Shown here: in pieces, positions 17,552-38,558 of the stretch | Numbering within the stretch: the stretch's first letter is position 1 | Layout of the letters: each line of letters starts with the position of its first letter | Source: Chthoniobacteraceae bacterium | Lineage (GTDB): Bacteria; Verrucomicrobiota; Verrucomicrobiia; Chthoniobacterales; Chthoniobacteraceae | DNA length: 64,000 nt | Assembly (NCBI GenBank): GCA_947476045.1 | Contig: CANJNZ010000013.1 | Location: 1 to 64,000, forward strand | Reading direction: 5' to 3' | Notes under the pieces: generated by a model | Told to the model about the DNA's origin: nothing | Seen by the model: the letters and a program-made list of their open reading frames with translations, nothing else | Database searches by the model: none | Translations under genes and position numbers: made by a program

Positions 17552-18544
17552 ATGAACAAAAAAACTAAACGTTACTCCGCGCTTGCCCTGCTTCTCGCAG
17601 GCGTGAGCATCACGCCACACGCCGCCAAGGCGGATTACACCAGCTACATTCAAAGCACCAATCCAGTCGGATGGTGGGGCATGAATGAAACATCTGGAAC
17701 GACAACCGCCGACCTCTCCGGTTCATTCGGTGCGGCGAATAACCTGACTGCCGGTGGAACCTTTGGTGGAACCGCCGTCTATCCCGGTGGAGTTCCTGAT
17801 CCTCTGGGTGCACGAAACATCGACCTCACCTACGGGCCAACTGCTAGTATTAATCAGTCGGGTTTCGGCGGTGCTGGGATGGCCGGCTCCAATAAAGCGT
17901 CGTATTTCGCTGGTGCTGCCAACGCCGATCCGAACCCTACAGATTCAGTAGCCTTCGGGCATGGGCCCGGCCCGGTTACTCTAGGTAATTTTAATGCCAC
18001 CTCGGGTGCCATCTATCATTACGATGGTCAGACTGGTTTCACAGGTATGTCTATCGAAATCTGGGCGAAACCAGATGGATTCACTGGTCAAGACTCTGAG
18101 CGTTTTATCGGGAACCGCCTTTGGTTTTTTGGCTTTACGAGTGGTGGCACTTTGCATTTCACCACAGCAGCAAAACAAGACTACTTTGGTGGTGCAGCGC
18201 CTAATGATGGCAACTTCCACCAGTATGGCGTCTCGTGGAATGCAGCCACTGGAAATGCTGACTTCTATGTTGACGGTGCCCCAGCGGGTTCGTCTGGCGG
18301 TGCCACGAATCTGTTTACAATTAACCCAGCATCGCCAAACAACGCGATCGCTGTTGGTGGACGCCCAAATGGTGGACAGGCTTTCAAAGGGTGGATCGAT
18401 GAAGCCGTGATCTGGAATCAACCCCTCACCGCGACTGATTTTGCCAACAGCTACTCAGCTGCAACGACAGCTGTTCCCGAGCCGGGATCGCTTGCACTGC
18501 TTGGCGTTGGCGCACTCAGTTTGGTTCGCCGCCGCCGCAAATAA
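17552..18544 (+). CDS. LamG-domain PEP-CTERM secreted protein
   Basis: The 330-residue protein has a signal peptide (residues 1 to about 27, ending in KAD), one concanavalin-A/LamG-like domain (about 30-305) and a C-terminal PEP-CTERM sorting tail: VPEPGSLALLG, a hydrophobic segment and RRRRK. Such tails are processed by exosortase and link proteins to extracellular polysaccharide production. The LamG-3 features FTGMSIEIWAK, GVSWNAATGNADFYVDG and FKGWIDEAVIW are visible. The whole domain reappears, highly similar, inside the giant protein at 32814-38426. A candidate promoter precedes it and a terminator follows. The ligand is unknown; glycan binding is likely (inference). Confidence 0.9.
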   Translation: MNKKTKRYSALALLLAGVSITPHAAKADYTSYIQSTNPVGWWGMNETSGTTTADLSGSFGAANNLTAGGTFGGTAVYPGGVPDPLGARNIDLTYGPTASINQSGFGGAGMAGSNKASYFAGAANADPNPTDSVAFGHGPGPVTLGNFNATSGAIYHYDGQTGFTGMSIEIWAKPDGFTGQDSERFIGNRLWFFGFTSGGTLHFTTAAKQDYFGGAAPNDGNFHQYGVSWNAATGNADFYVDGAPAGSSGGATNLFTINPASPNNAIAVGGRPNGGQAFKGWIDEAVIWNQPLTATDFANSYSAATTAVPEPGSLALLGVGALSLVRRRRK

Positions 18545-27484: not shown

Positions 27485-28155
27485 GATGTGGGTTGGATCC
27501 TGTTGATGCTGCGGAGTAATTCTCACTAACAGACCGGAGAAAAGAAATACGATTCAAATAATGCTCCGCACAAAATGAAAGGCGGCCGGGCATTTTCAAG
27601 AAAGACCCGGAGCCGCATCATCTAACGGGATTTCATGCACGGCGCAGTCATGGCGTGTATGGATGCCGGGGGAGGGGCGAGCCGGCGAATTTGACGGTGG
27701 CGAATTCGCAACCGAGAAAGTCCCGAATGCATCCCGGGAAAGCGGAAAAGATATTTGTCAGCGACGGTGCATATGCGCGCCGTGCACCGATGTTTTATAC
27801 CATTTTCACAAGGAGATCGGTAAAATGGAGCGCGGGCATCAAGGAGAGGGGCCGTCCCGGCCCCTTGTGCCCCGCAGGGGCGCCAGCAAAATACGCCACC
27901 ACCATCAGCGTGCGACCCGCAGGGCACCCCTCCGGAGTGCAGTGGGCCGGGACGGCCCCCCTCCTTGCCAAAGCGCCAAATACGGAGTTCTAGCGAACTA
28001 TTCACACTTTTGGTATCAGTAGTAAAAAAGTGAAGAGTGGAGGAATAGGAAAAATATTTTAAAAAATGCTTGCTCATCTCAAGAAAATGCAAATATTCAC
28101 GCCCAGATTCCCCCTGCCACCAATGAACACTCCTAAAAATACCACCAAAACAACC
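27485..28155. repeat. Repeat-bearing spacer with a 16-bp GC-rich inverted repeat
   Basis: This 671-base spacer lacks a convincing gene. GGGGCCGTCCCGGCCC at 27848-27863 has its exact reverse complement at 27944-27959. The interval between them holds further short palindromes such as CCCCGCAGGGGC and CTCCGGAG. The fold resembles REP/MITE-like intergenic elements. The frames crossing it show no recognisable protein. The last part (28000-28155) is AT-rich and probably holds the promoter and leader of the next gene. Confidence 0.55.
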
Positions 28156-28938
28156 ATGAAAACCTCAGCAACCACACCCCTCACCCGTTCCATCAAACAT
28201 CTGTGCGCCGCTTCGGCCGCAGCCGTTCTCCTCTTCGGTGCCGCAACCGCAAAAGCCGATTTCAACATTTACTCACAGAGTTTTACTGGCATTGCCAATG
28301 GAACAGTAGCGGATGGAGGAGTGGGGGATATTTATAACTGGGATTACAATCCCAATAACGCCCAGATACAGGGAGAAAAACTTACCCTTTCGGGCTCCAC
28401 TGACCTACTCCTCGGCTTTGGAAGCGACTTATTCAGCCACGGAACTAATCATATCAAAATTGAATTCGATTTAACCTCGTATCAGCAACTTGATATCTTT
28501 TTTGCCCCTGGTGATGCTCCTGCCCACGATTTCGTCTATAATGCAACTGTGGGCTTTGAACATGGTTCTGATCGGCTTTATAACTTTAGCGGAAGCGGCG
28601 CTGATTACGGTTCCCAGCAGTTCACCGGTGTCTCGAATCCAATGACAAACCATTGGACGTTCGATTTCGTAAAGGCAGGGACTGATGTAACGTGGTTTGC
28701 CACCTTCGACAGCAACACATTGTTCGCATCTGGTGGAACGAAAACGTATAGCATCGCCGCCTACACTGCTGTTGGCTTGAATACGATGGAAATTAATCCG
28801 CTAGGTGGCGCGGGGACTACGCTGGACAACATCGTCGTTACCGGCGTTGTTGCAGTGCCAGAACCAACTTCCGCATTACTGATGGTAGCAGGCGGCGTCT
28901 CGCTGCTCGCCCGCCGTCGTCGCGAAAACAAGAAATAA
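28156..28938 (+). CDS. PEP-CTERM secreted protein of unknown function
   Basis: The 260-residue protein (from the ATG at 28156) has a signal peptide ending near AKAD and a C-terminal sorting tail: VPEPTSALLMV, a hydrophobic stretch and ARRRRENKK. The mature middle is beta-rich, with Gly/Asn/Ser (YSQSFTGIANGTVADGGVGD, NHIKIEFDLTSY) and resembles the concanavalin-like folds often found in this class, but no family is recognisable. In-frame ATGs at 28066 and 28123 exist; 28156 gives the most normal signal peptide. A strong terminator follows. Confidence 0.85.
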   Translation: MKTSATTPLTRSIKHLCAASAAAVLLFGAATAKADFNIYSQSFTGIANGTVADGGVGDIYNWDYNPNNAQIQGEKLTLSGSTDLLLGFGSDLFSHGTNHIKIEFDLTSYQQLDIFFAPGDAPAHDFVYNATVGFEHGSDRLYNFSGSGADYGSQQFTGVSNPMTNHWTFDFVKAGTDVTWFATFDSNTLFASGGTKTYSIAAYTAVGLNTMEINPLGGAGTTLDNIVVTGVVAVPEPTSALLMVAGGVSLLARRRRENKK

Positions 28939-28961: not shown

Positions 28962-29001
28962 AAGACCGGGCCTGTATCTTTGCAGGCCCGGTCTTCTTTT
29001 T
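28962..29001 (+). terminator. Rho-independent terminator after the PEP-CTERM gene
   Basis: A perfect 13-bp stem (28962-28974 with 28983-28995), an 8-base loop and CTTTTTG follow the stop codon. Confidence 0.92.
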
Positions 29002-29106
29002 GCCCACATCCGGAAGCAAAGTGAGCCGCGACTCATACCGCTTGAAATACAGCGGAGCAGCCCGGAGGAAAATCAAACACGCTGCATGCTTGTGTGCGTT
29101 CAAAAC

Positions 29107-29497
29107 AAAAATGCTCCAGTATCGGTGGTGAAGAAGAACGCCAACGGTGTTCCGTCAATCAGCCCGGTGGTTGCGAGGCACGAGCTACCCCGGGTGTGCC
29201 ATAAAAAAATGCCAACAACCCTGAAAGGGTTGCAGCCATCGTGATTCGCCGCGCTGTGGGATGTAACCCTTTCAGGGTTTTGGTCTCATTTTATCAAACG
29301 TCCCATGGTAGACGGTTGCCAGCGCCCCCGGCGCTGCCCTTCGGGCTGCCTGCGGCAGGCTATGTCGCTCCGCTCCATTCGTTGTCGCGCCAACCATGGG
29401 CTGAATGATGGAACGCCGTTGGCGTTTTCACAGCCCAATTGTAAAGGCACGGACTCACGCTTGTATGTTTGCAAAAATAGAAACCAAAATGCTCCAG
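29107..29497. repeat. Repeat element flanked by a 12-bp direct repeat
   Basis: AAAATGCTCCAG occurs at 29108-29119 and 29486-29497. Just inside are imperfect inverted segments: around 29131-29160 (AACGCCAACGGTGTTCCG) and, in opposite orientation, around 29399-29430 (GGAACGCCGTTGGCGTT). In the centre two palindromic 15-mers, AACCCTGAAAGGGTT (29217-29231) and its reverse complement (29265-29279), form a hairpin. There is no transposase. The layout of direct repeat, inverted ends and internal hairpin resembles a decayed non-autonomous mobile element. The rest of the 740-base spacer (28939-29678) holds no gene. Confidence 0.55.
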
Positions 29498-29571
29498 CAG
29501 CACGGCGCGCTATTAAATTCCACGTCAACTTTCTGCGGAGGGTATCTCATTAATCTGCAGCTTTTTTAAAT

Positions 29572-29678
29572 CGCTAATCGGTCAGTAAATATCCAGTAAA
29601 CGTGCTTGCGAATGTGCGAATATTTTTCGATGTTGTAGTGCCGAATTTCATGCGCCCTCTTCCATCCCACTTCCCTCA
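29572..29678 (+). promoter_or_regulatory. Duplicated upstream region, copy A
   Basis: These 107 bases match those before the next paralog (32707-32813) at all but 7 positions with no gap. Two TGCGAAT heptamers spaced 9 bases apart precede an A/T stretch. The region must hold the shared promoter and leader; no Shine-Dalgarno is present. Confidence 0.65.
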
Positions 29679-32630
29679 ATGAAATTAAAACCACATCAGC
29701 ACCGCTTTATTAAAAAACGGATTTGCGCGTGGCCGCTGTTCACGATGTTTGCGGTGAGCGCATCCGCAGCGAATGTTTCGTGGACGAGGGAGATGGATGC
29801 CGTGTGGAGCACGTGGGAAAACTGGGCGGGCGGTCTTCCGGTCACCACGGATTTATCGGTGTTTGATGCACGTGCAGCAGCGAATTTAAACACGACAGAC
29901 GCGGCAGAGATTTCGATGCAGGATTTGAAAATCGCGACGCAGACCGGGCTGATTACCATCGGCGGAGCAAACACTCTGACGCTCGGTGCCGGCGGCTTCA
30001 GCATGAACAACGACACGCTGGGACTGGCGATGGAGGCGGTGGTTGCGATTGCGGTGGAGCAGGCGCGAAACGAGGCGTCCATGCAGAAGCTGGCGGTGAA
30101 AGGCGGGGCGGTTGTAAATTTAAACAGGATCGGAATGGGCGATTTGACTTTAAGCGGCGCGAATATGTTCGCCGCGACGAAGGTGATTGAAGACGAACCA
30201 TTGAATGTGCCCGCGAGTTTGAAAAGAACGAAGGTGGGGAAATTAGCGTTCACGGAATTTGGTTTGATGAGCACTGGAGCGGTGCCGAGGACGAGTCCCA
30301 GACTGGAGCCGGTTAGATTCAACAACGTCAGCGGAGTGGCGCAGTCCGCGAGTCGTGAAGGGAGGCGCACGGTGAAAATCACCGTGCGCGGCGCTGGCAA
30401 AGCGGGATCGGTCGTGAGGCCGGCGGATTCGGGAGGAACGGGGGAGGATTTTCGTGCGGCATTAGAGTTGCCGCATGGCGCGGGGCCTTTGCTCGCGCAG
30501 ATTAGGGCCGTGGAAATGTCGCTCCGCGATACAGGATCAGGTAATACGGACGCACGTGATTTGGCTCTCGACGAGGGTAACATCGTAACGGCGGGCAATC
30601 AGAATTTCGGGCACCAATATGCGACATCGAGATTGACCCCTCAGGTTTCCCCCCCTGCATCGGGCCTGCTCTCCGTCAGTTTTACATTCGGCTACGGCTT
30701 TCGCATGGAAAACGCCAATGGCTCGGGTCCCGGGGCGATTTCAAATAACTGGAATCACGTGAACGCGTATCCGATGCCGAATACGACTCTTCAGTTTAAT
30801 GACATTCCACCGCCACCCGCCCCTGCACTTCATTCAGAGTCATACTTTTTAAATGGATCCAATCGGGGAAATAACACCTTCAGATTTGCAAACGGCCATA
30901 TGGTGAGAAACATCGGCTGGGACAAAAATAACCTAAACACCTTGCTCAGCGACGGCACGTTTCTCACAACGCCGATGACGTTCTCCTACGACGACCCTGC
31001 CACGATCGGTGCGTTTGCACATAATGGCAGCTACGGCTCCGGCCCCGTCATTGAAGCGGGAACAGCCACCCAGCCATACAACCAACGACAGCTTCGTTGG
31101 ACAGCATCAGGCGACAGCGGAGGCTCCATCTCGTATTTTGAATTCGGAAATATCCCAGTCGATCGTCTGGGCGGCCTATACTCAGTATATTTGCAAGGCT
31201 CCGGTTTCGTTGTTCCTCAACTCACGAATTTAACGTCACCTACACTCCGCCTGCAGACTCCGGGCAAGGCTGGCACTTTAATCCTCTCATATATCCAGTT
31301 CGTAGCCGTCCCTACTACCATTTACTGGACCGGCGCTTCCACCCCCGCTGACGCGCTGTGGAGCAACTCCAACAATCTTTCCACAGACTCGGCAGGTCTG
31401 TTGCCATTGACAGTTCCACTAGCTAACTTCCATAGCGTGGTTTTCAACGCTGCGATTGCGGTGAATTTTCAAAACACGACCCTGGGCTCGGATCAAACGA
31501 TCCAAGCACTGAAATTTGGAAGTAACGCCACGACCCCTGTCAGTATCGGCGGAAACAACACCCTGACGATAGTCCCCACCCTGCCCACGACAGGAGTCAC
31601 CGTTGAGACACTTTCCGCAAATCATACCATCAGCACAAAAATTGCTCTCGGGGCGGCGCAGACATGGACGGTGACGGATGCGAGTCAGATATTGAATGCA
31701 AGCAGCGTGATCAGCGGGGGTTTTGCTCTGACCAAGGCGGGCTTGGGCACGTTGGTTCTCACCAACAGTAATACCTACACCGGTGCGACAACGATCAACG
31801 CAGGCACGCTACAACTGGGCGACGGGGGCACCACCGGCGCGATTTCCAAGGACAGCAGCGTCGTCATCAGCGGGACCGGCACCCTAGCCATCAACCGTGG
31901 CAACACTATGACACAAGGCGTGGACTTCGGCCTGATCGATGGCAGCGGCAGATTCACCCAATCTGGGAATGGCACCACGATCCTCAATCTCCCCAACACC
32001 TACACCGGCCAGACGACGGTGAATGGAGGGGTGTTGCTCGTTACCGGTGTGGGTTCGATTTCCGGCAGCACAACCGTGGTGAATGGAGGCGGCACGCTCG
32101 GCGGGACTGGAACAACTGGGAGTGTGACAGTGAACGGCGGAGTGATTGCACCCGGCGATCCCAGCGCGCCCGGCGGCATTGGTGATATGACCGTCAACGG
32201 TAATGTCAGCTTCAGCGGAAGCTCCGCTCTGAACATTCAGTTTGATTACGACATACCTGCCAAAGACCTGCTTAATCTTAATGGAACCGGCATCCTCACA
32301 ATTTCCAGTGGAGCAGTGCTGAACTTCTCTGTGAGTGTGTCTGATGCGGTAGAGATCGCCACTCCCTATATCGGGACACCGCTGACGATCATCGACTATG
32401 CCGACGGCGGTTGGACGAGCACCGGACCCGGGAACAATATGTTTGCCGGGATGAATGACGATCAGACGTTTATAGCGCCCTCAGGATTTACCTACCTCAT
32501 TTCCTACGATGGTGCTGGCGGGGTATCAGAGGTGACATTGACCTTGGTATCGATCCCCGAACCCGGTGCTGCGGTGTCGCTGCTCGGTGGCCTCGGTCTG
32601 CTGCTCGGCGTTCGGCGGCGCAGGGAGTGA
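29679..32630 (+). CDS. Beta-strand-repeat (autotransporter-associated repeat) PEP-CTERM protein
   Basis: The 983-residue surface protein has a signal peptide (MKLKPHQH... to ASAAN), an N-terminal region of about 300 residues (ENWAGGLPVTTDLSVFD, ANTLTLGAGGFSM) shared with the neighbouring giant protein, a unique middle (about 310-540), and a C-terminal set of autotransporter-associated beta-strand repeats (TLVLTNSNTYTGATTINAGTLQLG; TYTGQTTVNGGVLLVTG) that form a right-handed beta helix. It ends with IPEPGAAVSLLGG, a hydrophobic segment and VRRRRE. There is no autotransporter barrel, so export is by Sec with exosortase sorting (family knowledge). It probably contributes to the extracellular matrix or polymer binding. 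Confidence 0.88.
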   Translation: MKLKPHQHRFIKKRICAWPLFTMFAVSASAANVSWTREMDAVWSTWENWAGGLPVTTDLSVFDARAAANLNTTDAAEISMQDLKIATQTGLITIGGANTLTLGAGGFSMNNDTLGLAMEAVVAIAVEQARNEASMQKLAVKGGAVVNLNRIGMGDLTLSGANMFAATKVIEDEPLNVPASLKRTKVGKLAFTEFGLMSTGAVPRTSPRLEPVRFNNVSGVAQSASREGRRTVKITVRGAGKAGSVVRPADSGGTGEDFRAALELPHGAGPLLAQIRAVEMSLRDTGSGNTDARDLALDEGNIVTAGNQNFGHQYATSRLTPQVSPPASGLLSVSFTFGYGFRMENANGSGPGAISNNWNHVNAYPMPNTTLQFNDIPPPPAPALHSESYFLNGSNRGNNTFRFANGHMVRNIGWDKNNLNTLLSDGTFLTTPMTFSYDDPATIGAFAHNGSYGSGPVIEAGTATQPYNQRQLRWTASGDSGGSISYFEFGNIPVDRLGGLYSVYLQGSGFVVPQLTNLTSPTLRLQTPGKAGTLILSYIQFVAVPTTIYWTGASTPADALWSNSNNLSTDSAGLLPLTVPLANFHSVVFNAAIAVNFQNTTLGSDQTIQALKFGSNATTPVSIGGNNTLTIVPTLPTTGVTVETLSANHTISTKIALGAAQTWTVTDASQILNASSVISGGFALTKAGLGTLVLTNSNTYTGATTINAGTLQLGDGGTTGAISKDSSVVISGTGTLAINRGNTMTQGVDFGLIDGSGRFTQSGNGTTILNLPNTYTGQTTVNGGVLLVTGVGSISGSTTVVNGGGTLGGTGTTGSVTVNGGVIAPGDPSAPGGIGDMTVNGNVSFSGSSALNIQFDYDIPAKDLLNLNGTGILTISSGAVLNFSVSVSDAVEIATPYIGTPLTIIDYADGGWTSTGPGNNMFAGMNDDQTFIAPSGFTYLISYDGAGGVSEVTLTLVSIPEPGAAVSLLGGLGLLLGVRRRRE

Positions 32631-32813
32631 TCAGCGGAGGCGCGCCGCAAATATGGACGGCGACATTCCTGTCGCGCCATTGAACCCCGCGTCAACTTTC
32701 TGAACTCGCTAATCCATCTGTAGATATCCAGTAATCGTGCTTGCGAATGTGCGAATATTTTTCGATGTTGTAGGGCCGAATTTCACGCGCCCTCTTCCAT
32801 CCCACTTCCCTCA
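32631..32813 (+). promoter_or_regulatory. Spacer with duplicated upstream region, copy B, and a short repeat motif
   Basis: Bases 32707-32813 repeat the region before copy A with 7 differences in 107. Just upstream, GTCAACTTTCTG at about 32689-32703 is also shared with the copy A spacer, where about 38 extra bases intervene. The motif GGCGACATTCCTGTCGC at 32659-32675 is identical to the core of the inverted repeat at 61200-61324. Confidence 0.6.
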
Positions 32814-35800
32814 ATGAAATTAAAACCACACCAGCACTCCTTTTCTAAAAAGAGGATTTGCGCATGGCCATTGGTGACGATGTTTGCGGTGAGCGCATCC
32901 GCAGCGAATGTTTCGTGGACGAGGGAGATGGATGCCGTGTGGAGCACCGGGGAAAATTGGGCGGGCGGTCTTCCGGTCACCACGGAATTGTCGGTTTATG
33001 ATGCATGCGCTGTGGCCAATTTGGACACAACAGGCGCGGCAGAGGTTTCAATGCAGGATTTGAAAATCGCGATGCAGACCGGGCTGATTACCGTCGGTGG
33101 AGCAAACACGCTGACGCTCGGTGCCGGCAGGTTCAGAATGAGCAACGACACGATGGGACTGGCGATGGAAGCGGTGGTAGCGAGCGCGGCGGAGCAGGCG
33201 CGTAATGAGGCCTCCATGCAGATGCTTGTGGTGAAAGGCGGAGCGGATGTGAATTTGAGCAGGATCGGAATGGGCGATTTGACTTTGAGCAACGCGAATA
33301 TGTTCGCCGCTACGAAGGTGATTGAAGATGAGCCACTGACTGTGCCCGTGAGTTTAAAAGAGATGAAGGCGGGGAAATTAGCGTTCACGGAATTTGGTTT
33401 GATGAGCGCTGGAGCGATACAGATGCTGGAGTCGGTGAAGTTTCGCGGAGACGCTGGTGTGGCGAGAGCCGCAAATCGTGGCGGCAGGAATACGGTAAAT
33501 GTTTCTATTCGTGGTGCACGTAACGAGGGATCAAAGGAGAAAATTGTGATCACCAGCGACAGCACTCCCCAGCTTGAGGCAGCGTTGAAGCTATCACATG
33601 GCACTGGGCCCATGTTTTTCGCTGGGGCTCACGAGACGTCGTCGCAAACCAAGGAATTGGTCTCCGTGAATGACGGCTCGCTGGGCAATATCACTGGGAC
33701 CAATACCAGCATCCAGCCGACCATTCGCGTCCCAAAATCTGCGCGCAATCTTGTCGCTGGTGCTGTTATAGGCAATCAGGGTCCGGACTATGCAACTTAC
33801 ATCGCGAGCACCAACCCGGTTGCTTGGTGGGGCATGAATGAATCCGACGGAACAACCACTGTTGACCTCTCCGGTGCATTTGGTGCGGCGAACAACCTGA
33901 CAGCAGGGGGGCTTTTTAATGGGACTGCAGTTTATCCAGGTGGTGTTCCTGACCCATTAGGCGCTCGAAACATCAATCTCAAATATGGCCCGACTGCCAT
34001 TATTAATCAGCCGGGTTATGTGAGGGGCACTTCCAATAGAGCGACATATTTTGCTGGTGGTGCCAATGTCGATCCAAACCCTACCGCTTCCGTAGCCTTC
34101 GGACATGCACCCGGCCCGGTTACCACTGGTAATATGGATGCCCCTAATAACGCTTACTTGGGTGCAATATATCATTACGATGGGCAGACTGGTTTTGCAG
34201 GATTATCTCTCGAAATCTGGGCGAAAACAAATGGGTCTACTAGCCAAGACTCTGAACGCTTTATCGGGAGCCGCGCTTGGGGATTCGGCTTTCAGGCTAA
34301 TGGCGGTTTTGGAGGCCTTCATTTCACCACTTTTGGCAAGCAGGACTACTTTGGTGCCGGTATGCCCACAGATAACGACTGGCATCAATTTGGTGTCTCG
34401 TGGACTGCAGCAACTGGAAATGTTGCTTTCTACATTGATGGTATTCAGACGAGCACATCAACCGGAGCGGTAAACATGCTTGCGATAAATCCATCTTCGA
34501 TAAACAACGCGATCACTGTTGGTGGACGCCCAAATGGCGGGCAGGCTTTCAAAGGGTGGATTGACGAGGCCGTGGTCTGGAATACTCCCCGCACCGCTGC
34601 GGATTTCAACGCCAGCTATCTTGCTGCACTGACTCCGCTGACCACGGCTTACTGGATCGGCGCGATAAGCGGAGTTTGGAATGCCAACGTTAAAAACTTC
34701 GCCTTCAATATCGAGGGGACGAATTACGCCAAAGTGCCGGTGTCCAGCATTACCGATGTGATTTTCAACGCTAACGTGGCGGCGAATTTCGGAAACACAA
34801 CGCTCGGGGTGGATACGACGATCAAATCGCTGACGTTTGCGGGCTACACGACTGCGTCGGTGGGCATCGGAGGGGGAAATACACTGACCATTGCGCCTGC
34901 AACAGACAGGACTGGTGTGACCGTGGAGTCGGGCTCCGGCACTCATACCCTCAGCACGAATGTGGCGCTGGGTGTAGCGCAGACATGGACGGTTAGCGAC
35001 GCCAGCCAGACCCTCAACATGAGCGGGGTGATCAGTGGTGCGTTTTCGTTGTTCAAGTCCGGAGCCGGCACGCTCGTGCTTGCGGGCAACAACATTAACA
35101 CCGGCGGAACAACCGTGGCGCAGGGGACGCTGGCTTTGGACTACACGACGGTTGGGAGTAAGTTGACAGACGCTGGTGTTTTGACCTTCGCAGGCGGAAC
35201 TGTGGATCTCAGAAACGGTGCCACCACGCATAACGAAGTGGTCGCCTCGACGACGATCTCCGGCGGCTTGAGCAACGTGACGCGTAGCAGCGGCACATCG
35301 GTGCTGCGCCTCAACACCATCACCCCCAGTTTGGGTGTGCTCAATTTCGGTGCCGATAACATCGCCGACACAGACAACACGAACTCCAACGGCATCCTCG
35401 GAGGCTGGGCCACAATGGGGCGCACGGACTGGGCGACGAACTCCACCAACGCAGCGGACGGCCCGATCACGGCTTACAGCGGCTACACGGACATCAATGT
35501 GCGCGGGGCGAGCACCATTGCCGACGGAGCGACAACGAATGTGCGACTGCTCGGCGACGGCACTAGTGGCAGCATCACACTCGGCAGCGTGAGCACGACG
35601 GTGAACACACTGCTGCAAAGCAACGCGAATTTTGCGGGAACAGTGGATACCGCGGGCAGCGCATTGGCGACGAACGGCATCATGATCGGCCTCGGTAAGC
35701 AGGCTCTGACCATCGGCGCGACCGCTGACAGTGGAATGTTGAAGTCAGCCACACCGGGCGGCGCGATTTTTCTGAACAACTTCAGCACGACCAACACACT

Positions 35801-38426
35801 GACGGTGAACGCGGTGATCGCCGATAATACTTCCGCATCGGGCCTCGGAACTGTGGGCGTGGTGATTTTAAACGGAACAAATACTTACACTGGCGCGACG
35901 ATAGTGGACTCGGGTGTGTTGAGCGTCCGCAATAGCGCGGGGCTCGGTGGCGTGGCGGGCGGCACCTCGGTGCAGTTTGGAGCGGCGCTGGAACTGCAGG
36001 GCGGTGCAGGCCTTTCCATCGGCGCTGAATCGCTGACGCTCAGCGGCACCGGCATCAACAGTGGAGGTGTGTTGCGCAGCATCAGCGGCAACAACACATG
36101 GACAGGAACAGTCACGCTCGCCGGTGATGTGCGAATTAACTCGGATGCCGGCAGCCTGACGCTGAACGCCGCCAGCAGCATCACCGCAATCGATCGGAAT
36201 CTGATTCTCGGCGGGGCTGGCAATGGCGCTGTCACGGGTTCGATTTCCACGGGCGCAGGCACACTGACCAAGGACGGCTCCGGCACTTGGACGCTTTCCG
36301 GAGCCAATACTTACACCTGCGAGACGAAGCTGAGCAACGGCACGCTGAGCGTTGGCGCGAATGTAAATTTAGGAAACGGCGGCGCGCTGATTTTTGACGG
36401 CGGCACTTTGAAATACACAGGTGCTAGCGACACCGCGAATCGAGTTCTCACAATCAACGCAGGAAAAATCGCGATCTTCGATATCACGCAGGCTGGTGCG
36501 AATCTGACAGTCACCGGAGCATCACCAGCGACGACTGGCGCGCTTACCAAAAATGGCCCAGGCACGCTCACTCTCACAGGAACACAGGGCTATACCGGCG
36601 CGACCAACGTGAACGGCGGCACTTTCTCCTTTGGAGGAGGCAGCACGCTGCCCACACTCGCATCGAGCGCCATCACCCTTTCCAACAACAGCAACGTGGC
36701 ATTCAACCATTCCGATACCGCCACCTATAGCAAGGCGATCACCGGCACCGGTTCTTTCACCAAGAGTGGAACAGGCACGCTGACATTGAACGTCGTGCAG
36801 AGCTACAGCGGAGCGACCTTCATCGATGGCGGAACATTGAAGCTGCATTCCGAGCCGTCGTATCGCTACTACAGGTTCTCCATTTACAGCCTCATCAATT
36901 CAGACCTGGCCCAGATGTCTGAACTGGCCTTCTATTCGAGCGGCACGAACAACGTCAACGGCACGCGTGTTTTCCCGACCACCGCTACAGGGGATGGAGG
37001 AAACTACGGTGACCAACTCATCCCCTCGCTTTCCGATAACAACCTAAACACCAAGTGCACTTACAATGGATTGCCCAGCAGCACCCAGTTTGGGCGCTAC
37101 ATAACGTTCGATTTCGGCGCGACCACAGTGCTTTCCGGTTACGACTGGAGCACTGCGAATGATCAGACACCCAATCGGAACCCGAATAATTTCACTCTGT
37201 TCGGCAGCAACGACGGCACCACTTTTACAGTGGTCAACGCCCAGACCAACGCAGGCAGCACACCCACCACTACTTTCACATGGGCTCCCGGCTGGGCTAC
37301 AGGACAGATCAGTAATCCCCTGCCAATTACGACCGATCTCACCATCTCCAGCACAGGAACTCTGGCGCTCGACGGTGTAAATCAGCAGGTCACTTCACTC
37401 AGCGGCGCGACCGGTGCCCGTGTGACCAACAGCGGGGCGACCGACAAAACCCTCACGATCAGCGGCACATCCATCACCAATTTCAGTGGTGTCATCAGCA
37501 ATGGCGCGACGAATAAAATCAATCTGCTGAAGGCTGGTAACGGCACGCAAATCCTCACGGGCACAAACACCTATACCGGCACAACGACAATCAACGCAGG
37601 CACGCTGCAACTCGGCAACGGCAGCACCACTGGCGCGATATCCAAGGACAGCAACGTTGTCGTCAACGGAACCGGCACCCTCGCCATCAACCGCTCCAAC
37701 ACTGCGACACAAGGCGTGGACTTCGGCCTGATCACCGGCACCGGCGGATTTACCCAGGCTGGAAGCGGCACCACCATCTTCAGCCTCGTCAATACCTACA
37801 CCGGCCAGACGACGGTGAATGGAGGAGTGTTGCTCGTCACCGGTGTGGGTTCGATTTCCGGCAGCGCAACCGTGGTGAATGGAGGCGGCACGCTCGGTGG
37901 CACTGGAACAACTGGGAGTGTAACAGTGAACGGCGGAGTCATTGCGCCCGGCGATCCCAGCGCACCCGGTGGCATTGGTGATATGACCGTCAACGGTAAC
38001 GTCAGCTTCAGCGGAAGCTCCGCTCTGAACATTCAGTTTGATTACGACATACCGGGCAAAGACCTTCTCAATCTCACGGGAACCGGCATTCTCACTATTT
38101 CCAGTGGTGCAGTGCTGAACTTGTCAGTGAGCGTGTCTGATGCGGTCACGATAGCTGCTCCCTATATTGGAACACCGTTGACGATCATCGACTATGCCGA
38201 CGGAGGTTGGACGAGCACAGGACCCGGCAACAATGTATTTGCCGGGATGAATGACGATCAGACGTTTATAGCGCCCTCAGGATTTACCTATCGGATATCC
38301 TACGATGGCACTGGCGGGGTTTCAGAGGTTACACTGACTTTGGAGGCGATCCCCGAACCCGGCGTGGCGGTGTCGCTGCTCGGTGGCCTCGGCCTGCTGC
38401 TCGGCGTCCGGCGGCGCAGGGCGTAA
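32814..38426 (+). CDS. Giant modular PEP-CTERM protein: LamG domain, beta-strand repeats and discoidin-like insert
   Basis: The 1870-residue surface protein has a signal peptide and N-terminal region nearly identical to its neighbour (5 changes in the first 60 residues), then a LamG domain (about 322-605) that matches the one encoded at 17552-18544, a long series of autotransporter-associated beta-strand repeats (about 610-1340; NTYTGATIVDSGVLSVRN, GTLTKDGSGTWTLSGANTYT), a discoidin-like domain (about 1342-1492; YRYYRFSIYSL, QFGRYITFDFGATT) inserted between repeats, further repeats, and IPEPGVAVSLLGG plus VRRRRA at the end. The last 280 residues are almost the same as in the neighbour. It looks built by duplication and domain insertion. 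A glycan-binding extracellular role is inferred. Confidence 0.88.
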   Translation: MKLKPHQHSFSKKRICAWPLVTMFAVSASAANVSWTREMDAVWSTGENWAGGLPVTTELSVYDACAVANLDTTGAAEVSMQDLKIAMQTGLITVGGANTLTLGAGRFRMSNDTMGLAMEAVVASAAEQARNEASMQMLVVKGGADVNLSRIGMGDLTLSNANMFAATKVIEDEPLTVPVSLKEMKAGKLAFTEFGLMSAGAIQMLESVKFRGDAGVARAANRGGRNTVNVSIRGARNEGSKEKIVITSDSTPQLEAALKLSHGTGPMFFAGAHETSSQTKELVSVNDGSLGNITGTNTSIQPTIRVPKSARNLVAGAVIGNQGPDYATYIASTNPVAWWGMNESDGTTTVDLSGAFGAANNLTAGGLFNGTAVYPGGVPDPLGARNINLKYGPTAIINQPGYVRGTSNRATYFAGGANVDPNPTASVAFGHAPGPVTTGNMDAPNNAYLGAIYHYDGQTGFAGLSLEIWAKTNGSTSQDSERFIGSRAWGFGFQANGGFGGLHFTTFGKQDYFGAGMPTDNDWHQFGVSWTAATGNVAFYIDGIQTSTSTGAVNMLAINPSSINNAITVGGRPNGGQAFKGWIDEAVVWNTPRTAADFNASYLAALTPLTTAYWIGAISGVWNANVKNFAFNIEGTNYAKVPVSSITDVIFNANVAANFGNTTLGVDTTIKSLTFAGYTTASVGIGGGNTLTIAPATDRTGVTVESGSGTHTLSTNVALGVAQTWTVSDASQTLNMSGVISGAFSLFKSGAGTLVLAGNNINTGGTTVAQGTLALDYTTVGSKLTDAGVLTFAGGTVDLRNGATTHNEVVASTTISGGLSNVTRSSGTSVLRLNTITPSLGVLNFGADNIADTDNTNSNGILGGWATMGRTDWATNSTNAADGPITAYSGYTDINVRGASTIADGATTNVRLLGDGTSGSITLGSVSTTVNTLLQSNANFAGTVDTAGSALATNGIMIGLGKQALTIGATADSGMLKSATPGGAIFLNNFSTTNTLTVNAVIADNTSASGLGTVGVVILNGTNTYTGATIVDSGVLSVRNSAGLGGVAGGTSVQFGAALELQGGAGLSIGAESLTLSGTGINSGGVLRSISGNNTWTGTVTLAGDVRINSDAGSLTLNAASSITAIDRNLILGGAGNGAVTGSISTGAGTLTKDGSGTWTLSGANTYTCETKLSNGTLSVGANVNLGNGGALIFDGGTLKYTGASDTANRVLTINAGKIAIFDITQAGANLTVTGASPATTGALTKNGPGTLTLTGTQGYTGATNVNGGTFSFGGGSTLPTLASSAITLSNNSNVAFNHSDTATYSKAITGTGSFTKSGTGTLTLNVVQSYSGATFIDGGTLKLHSEPSYRYYRFSIYSLINSDLAQMSELAFYSSGTNNVNGTRVFPTTATGDGGNYGDQLIPSLSDNNLNTKCTYNGLPSSTQFGRYITFDFGATTVLSGYDWSTANDQTPNRNPNNFTLFGSNDGTTFTVVNAQTNAGSTPTTTFTWAPGWATGQISNPLPITTDLTISSTGTLALDGVNQQVTSLSGATGARVTNSGATDKTLTISGTSITNFSGVISNGATNKINLLKAGNGTQILTGTNTYTGTTTINAGTLQLGNGSTTGAISKDSNVVVNGTGTLAINRSNTATQGVDFGLITGTGGFTQAGSGTTIFSLVNTYTGQTTVNGGVLLVTGVGSISGSATVVNGGGTLGGTGTTGSVTVNGGVIAPGDPSAPGGIGDMTVNGNVSFSGSSALNIQFDYDIPGKDLLNLTGTGILTISSGAVLNLSVSVSDAVTIAAPYIGTPLTIIDYADGGWTSTGPGNNVFAGMNDDQTFIAPSGFTYRISYDGTGGVSEVTLTLEAIPEPGVAVSLLGGLGLLLGVRRRRA

Positions 38427-38558
38427 TCAGCAAAGACGCCGCGCATTCAAAATAATTTTTCCGCCCATGGTATTGCGCCTGGCAGCAGTGTTTTCGAGGT
38501 AACCGGGATCGTAAAACGTTAGCCCGAAACCCTGATAAGCACAGGGGGGAAGGGGGAG

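Follow-up and report, generated by a model that had tools for sequence, protein, structure and literature searches.

Two neighbouring genes of a Spartobacteria-type verrucomicrobium, A and B, very probably belong to a family of giant surface proteins with beta-helix repeats, whose dispersed genes evolve as mosaics with ends copied between paralogs, as judged from comparison with the genes of a sister genome. By the same comparison, gene A is a chimera with a front of the B type, a middle of the type found in the sister gene A5 and a C-terminal end that is that of neither ortholog. The C-ends of A, B and an unlinked gene on contig 47 (the C47 gene) show the sequence pattern expected of concerted evolution through gene conversion or recombination.

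Gene Order at the A-B Locus

The window, a stretch of 64,000 nucleotides, lies on contig 13 of a draft genome of 4.37 Mb in 123 contigs. The sister genome belongs to the same genus (MAG uncultured Spartobacteria bacterium Umea_bin-08385, a draft of ~300 contigs). Genes A (29679..32630, 983 aa) and B (32814..38426, 1870 aa), both open reading frames for mosaic PATR/PEP-CTERM-type surface proteins, stand in tandem, and all genes and gene parts of the window described here lie on the forward strand. As a syntenic anchor we used gene P (28066..28938), which encodes a 290-aa PEP-CTERM-type protein (PEP_CTERM domain 22.5 bits, cut-off 16) and is 90.6% identical in nucleotides to its sister ortholog P5 (dS 0.23). 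The local order is P - A - B, and in the sister genome A5 - P5 - B5 (contig CAIYUV010000189.1).

Directly 3′ of P, at 28962-28995, a hairpin with perfect 13-bp arms and a T tail resembles a terminator, suggesting that P and A are probably separate transcription units. Between P and A, ~360 bp at 29039-29400 are missing from the corresponding sister intergenic region. With its imperfect inverted arms of 34 and 44 nt and a palindromic motif, AACCCTGAAAGGGTTG, this segment resembles a small insertion or repeat element, and it matched nothing in the other fetched loci. The sole match in an Rfam scan of the region was a tRNA.

The Shared Ends of A and B Have Sharp Edges

A sequence-only reading had described A and B as paralogs with conserved ends and fully different middles. 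On the N-terminal side, homology runs over 29558-30281 and 32693-33416 at 89% nucleotide identity and comprises 121 bp of upstream sequence (29558..29678 for A, 32693..32813 for B, the latter a copy of the former) together with ~200 codons (29679-30281 and 32814-33416). The 7 differences counted in a 107-base upstream stretch and the 5 changes within the first 60 residues proved exact, but the conserved N-end is shorter than the 300 residues proposed, at ~210; residues 201-300 agree at just 32 of 92 aligned positions, and A 218-271 and B 214-267 are 41% identical. The upstream region has been copied between the genes along with the N-end. Neither upstream region yielded a sigma-70-like site when scanned for promoters, and the suggestion that a common promoter serves to generate surface-protein variety is a guess.

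On the C-terminal side, homology covers 31770-32650 and 37566-38446 at 88% nucleotide identity, from a PATR repeat to ~20 bp past the stop. The last ~280 residues are indeed shared, although 29 changes in 281 residues (~90% identity) make them less than almost exact copies. At both ends the identity in 60-nt windows climbs from 0.25-0.45 to >0.8 within ~60 bases. The middles have distinct ancestries, yet are not fully different: A 546-698 and B 610-760 form a homologous module with 54% amino acid identity and a saturated dS of ~2.4. Synonymous divergence between A and B is 0.36 at the N-end and 0.37 at the C-end versus ~2.4 in this homologous middle, so that even divergence along the whole length is rejected and the sharp edges of identity stand. 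Purifying selection to preserve the signals for anchoring and export could keep the ends alike while the middles drift, with no recombination involved, and the low dN of the C-ends (0.03-0.06) is what it would produce; it has practically no chance of being the explanation, since dS jumps at the edges too, from 0.31-0.36 to ~2.4, which protein-level selection alone cannot explain, and since orthologous C-ends differ between the species by a dS of ~1.3 or more.

Bodies Follow Orthology and C-Ends Do Not

In a whole-gene mosaic scan of the two genomes, the upstream region and N-end of A align to the P5-B5 intergenic region, to which the A upstream region is orthologous, and to the N-end of B5; A5 matches the middle of A, and B5 the body of B. 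The middle of A (residues 319-690, 30633..31748) is 89% identical in amino acids to A5, an ortholog of the same length, with a dS of 0.31. The N-end of A (~residues 1-213, 29679..30318) is of the B type, with a dS of 0.36 to B, 0.30 to B5 and 1.07 to A5. Body dS values are 0.24-0.47 for A/A5 and 0.47 for B/B5, and two ordinary housekeeping genes gave 0.45 and 0.47 between the genomes.

The C-ends behave in the opposite way. Within a genome, their dS is 0.31-0.33 for A/B, 0.18 for B/C47 and 0.69 for A5/B5 in the sister, versus 1.62 for A/A5 and 1.39 for B/B5 between orthologs. In five ortholog pairs recognised by their bodies, the C-ends are without exception only 52-61% identical between the species, whereas identity within a genome is 91-94% among A, B and C47 and 68-93% among seven sister genes; the C-end of B5 was matched at ten other places in the sister genome (64-86%). 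That C-ends are far closer within a genome than between orthologs points to concerted evolution, in which the A C-end would have been homogenised with B and, over its last ~190 residues, with C47, and the B C-end with A and C47, leaving it unlike its ortholog B5.

Site patterns, i.e., positions that divide the four genes two against two, favour A+A5 over A+B in the body (52:1, 24:0, 23:0) and A+B in the C-end (18:0, 37:0, 24:0, 34:0), with the switch between residues ~665 and 785. Trees and AU tests gave the same division. The C-end tree unites A, B and C47 in one group (support 100/100); A5, B5 and the other main C-ends of the sister genome fall in a separate clade. Neither A+A5 (p 3e-5) nor B+B5 (p 2.5e-8) survives an AU test. 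In the module tree, A groups with A5 (97/100) and B with B5 (100/99), and A+B is rejected (p 9e-82). In the N-end tree, A, B and B5 group together (100/99), and A+A5 is rejected (p 1.4e-4).

Duplication followed by module exchange, with ends kept alike by conversion or by recent origin, had been proposed from the two genes by themselves. The sister comparison upholds the exchange and the copying of the ends, but not plain duplication with a swapped middle, as the middle of A comes from a separate, older A5-type gene. If B had recently been duplicated in tandem, with one middle replaced once and the ends alike from youth alone, A and B would be equally diverged at both ends, as they are, and the repeated unit does take in 121 bp upstream and ~20 bp downstream. 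We nevertheless consider this improbable: the C-end is equally common to the unlinked C47, which is closer to B than A is, and for the C-end this refutes the idea; one duplication cannot render both C-ends unlike those of their orthologs; and in the sister genome the middle of A corresponds to an orthologous gene of equal length.

As the two genomes are fragmented drafts, the junctions in A and B depend on the assembly. Repeats of this kind misjoin easily, and metagenome assembly might have fused reads of two paralogs into a chimeric A. This is very unlikely, because the ends of A differ by 10-12% from every other copy and occur once, the 983 codons remain open across both junctions, and the division into two C-end clades is upheld by many contigs of two independent genomes. 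Copying of ends between paralogs remains our preferred reading.

Timing and Position of the Exchanges

The N-end dS values are star-like (A/B 0.36, A/B5 0.30, B/B5 0.37; range 0.30-0.37), which places the copying of the N-end near the species split without placing it before or after. Judged by synonymous divergence, the sharing of C-ends is lineage-specific and is younger than the N-end copying, or continuing, with the B/C47 value as the lowest case. The copying may have gone by conversion, by crossover or by import from a strain outside the sample, and in either direction. Counted from the end, C-end similarity splits mostly at ~190 and ~280 residues, close to PATR repeats: the A/B split falls exactly at the start of a PATR repeat (TYTG...), and pairs with C47 split ~20 residues after one. 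In proteins made up of repeats, such nearness may be trivial.

Domains, Predicted Fold and Anchoring

PATR repeats (PF12951) score above the curated cut-off of 27 in both proteins (A 55.1 bits, B 108.3 bits), and A also matches the autotransporter passenger repeat TIGR02601 at 58 bits. The PEP-CTERM model TIGR02595 passes in B (17.2 bits, cut-off 16), and the PF07589 scores (A 15.8, B 14.2 bits) lie below the cut-off of 20.7. The motif is visible in the tail as IPEPG..LLGGLGLLLGVRRRR, laid out as IPEPG, a hydrophobic stretch and RRRR at the C-terminus. The genome encodes a single exosortase (PF09721, 159 bits, contig 15:56746-57486), and a C-terminal autotransporter beta-barrel (PF03797) was found neither in A or B nor in the genome. 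AlphaFold predicts a beta-helix of moderate confidence for the C-half of A (pLDDT 63). Among solved structures, the autotransporter Ssp and a metagenomic beta-helix resemble it best, and pertactin does so more weakly. For the middle domain of A, two sequences yielded no usable fold (pLDDT 28). A and B are therefore probably exosortase-anchored beta-helix-repeat surface proteins, their location and cleavage being predicted.

B carries two further modules. Its LamG (ConA-like) domain (residues 325-607, 33786..34634; Laminin_G_3 45.6 bits), which has no sequence match among solved structures, is 72% identical in amino acids to a stand-alone gene at 17552-18544. That gene encodes a signal peptide, a LamG unit as in B and a PEP-CTERM tail, and its homology to B stops at the edges of the LamG unit. 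The sister genome likewise has both a stand-alone LamG gene and a LamG-bearing B, suggesting that the cassette is probably ancestral. The second module (residues ~1331-1575, 36804..37538) is a weak F5/8-type-C match (F5_F8_type_C 25.5 bits, just under the cut-off of 28.2). It does not occur in B5, which instead carries a second LamG at this site (1404-1556), and its best match is a third sister gene, G5C1 (72% amino acid identity overall, 61-80% per window).

A Possible Mechanism and Related Systems

In our preferred reading, A combines a B-type front, an A5-type middle and a C-end common to unlinked genes. RecA-type homologous recombination or gene conversion could copy sequence between paralogs, finding its homology in the PATR repeats that recur in these genes and in the conserved N- and C-terminal cassettes. 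The constant front may serve in export and the start of the helix, and the constant tail as a cap and PEP-CTERM anchor; both would be held constant by the shared machinery of secretion and anchoring that they encounter. The middle, whether LamG, F5/8C or the middle domain of A, would carry the predicted binding specificity.

The closest parallel is provided by the adhesin paralogs babA/babB (and homA/homB) of Helicobacter pylori. In babA and babB, the 5′ and middle parts follow orthology between strains and the 3′ segments resemble one another inside each strain, a pattern ascribed to concerted evolution and gene conversion in which chimeric genes arise (PMC3960876). Here, too, the end segments are closer within a genome than between orthologs, and the bodies follow orthology, a likeness of sequence signature seen in the genes of two genomes. 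In contrast to bab and hom, the proteins are of the PATR beta-helix/PEP-CTERM type and come from a Spartobacteria-type verrucomicrobium, the C-end is shared over at least three loci here and about ten in the sister genome, the N-end has moved as well, and whole middle modules differ.

The tail layout, the many copies per genome and the one exosortase are as in proteins sorted by the PEP-CTERM/exosortase (EpsH) system, of which 65 were reported in Verrucomicrobium spinosum (PMC1569441). A and B depart from the norm in scoring under the Pfam cut-off (the NCBIfam model passes for B), and homogenisation extends far beyond the ~25-residue sorting tail. The repeats above cut-off and the predicted helix resembling Ssp and pertactin recall autotransporter passenger repeat proteins, but the barrel of classical Type V autotransporters is lacking from A, B and the genome. 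An open-access literature search found no paper on concerted C-end evolution in PEP-CTERM proteins, which is weak evidence of novelty, and none on Spartobacteria with PEP-CTERM.

Verrucomicrobia have many giant PEP-CTERM and PATR proteins, most of them, to our knowledge, with no known function. Tails evolving in concert over many unlinked loci, together with exchanged middles, would explain poor ortholog assignment and would carry a mechanism known from Helicobacter adhesins over to free-living bacteria. They also serve as a warning that trees built from whole proteins or from the conserved ends yield wrong histories.

Other Family Members in the Genome

A search of the genome for further copies gave 13 matches to the N-end and 41 to the C-end, in open frames that reach 7590 codons and are often clustered (contigs 9, 12 and 13). 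The C47 gene (1460 codons) is only 47% identical to A at the N-end; its middle is nearest to B (71% and 61% of amino acids in two stretches), and its C-end is 83% identical to A overall and >90% over the last 180 residues. Other members, e.g., on contigs 9 and 55, have a second C-end type, and this genome therefore holds more than one C-end pool. It is tempting to speculate that the giant PATR/PEP-CTERM genes form one recombining pool genome-wide, in which PATR repeats act as portable seams for swapping front, binding and anchor cassettes between unlinked genes, as a standing means of surface-protein diversification; we regard this wider proposal as possible but doubtful.

Among the largest members of the family is the 7590-codon open frame on contig 9 (59272-82041), which has a related C-end and adjoins a 3201-codon relative. 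On contig 13, a further PATR/PEP-CTERM-type open frame of 1537 codons (63647-68257) starts at the extreme end of the window and continues beyond it.
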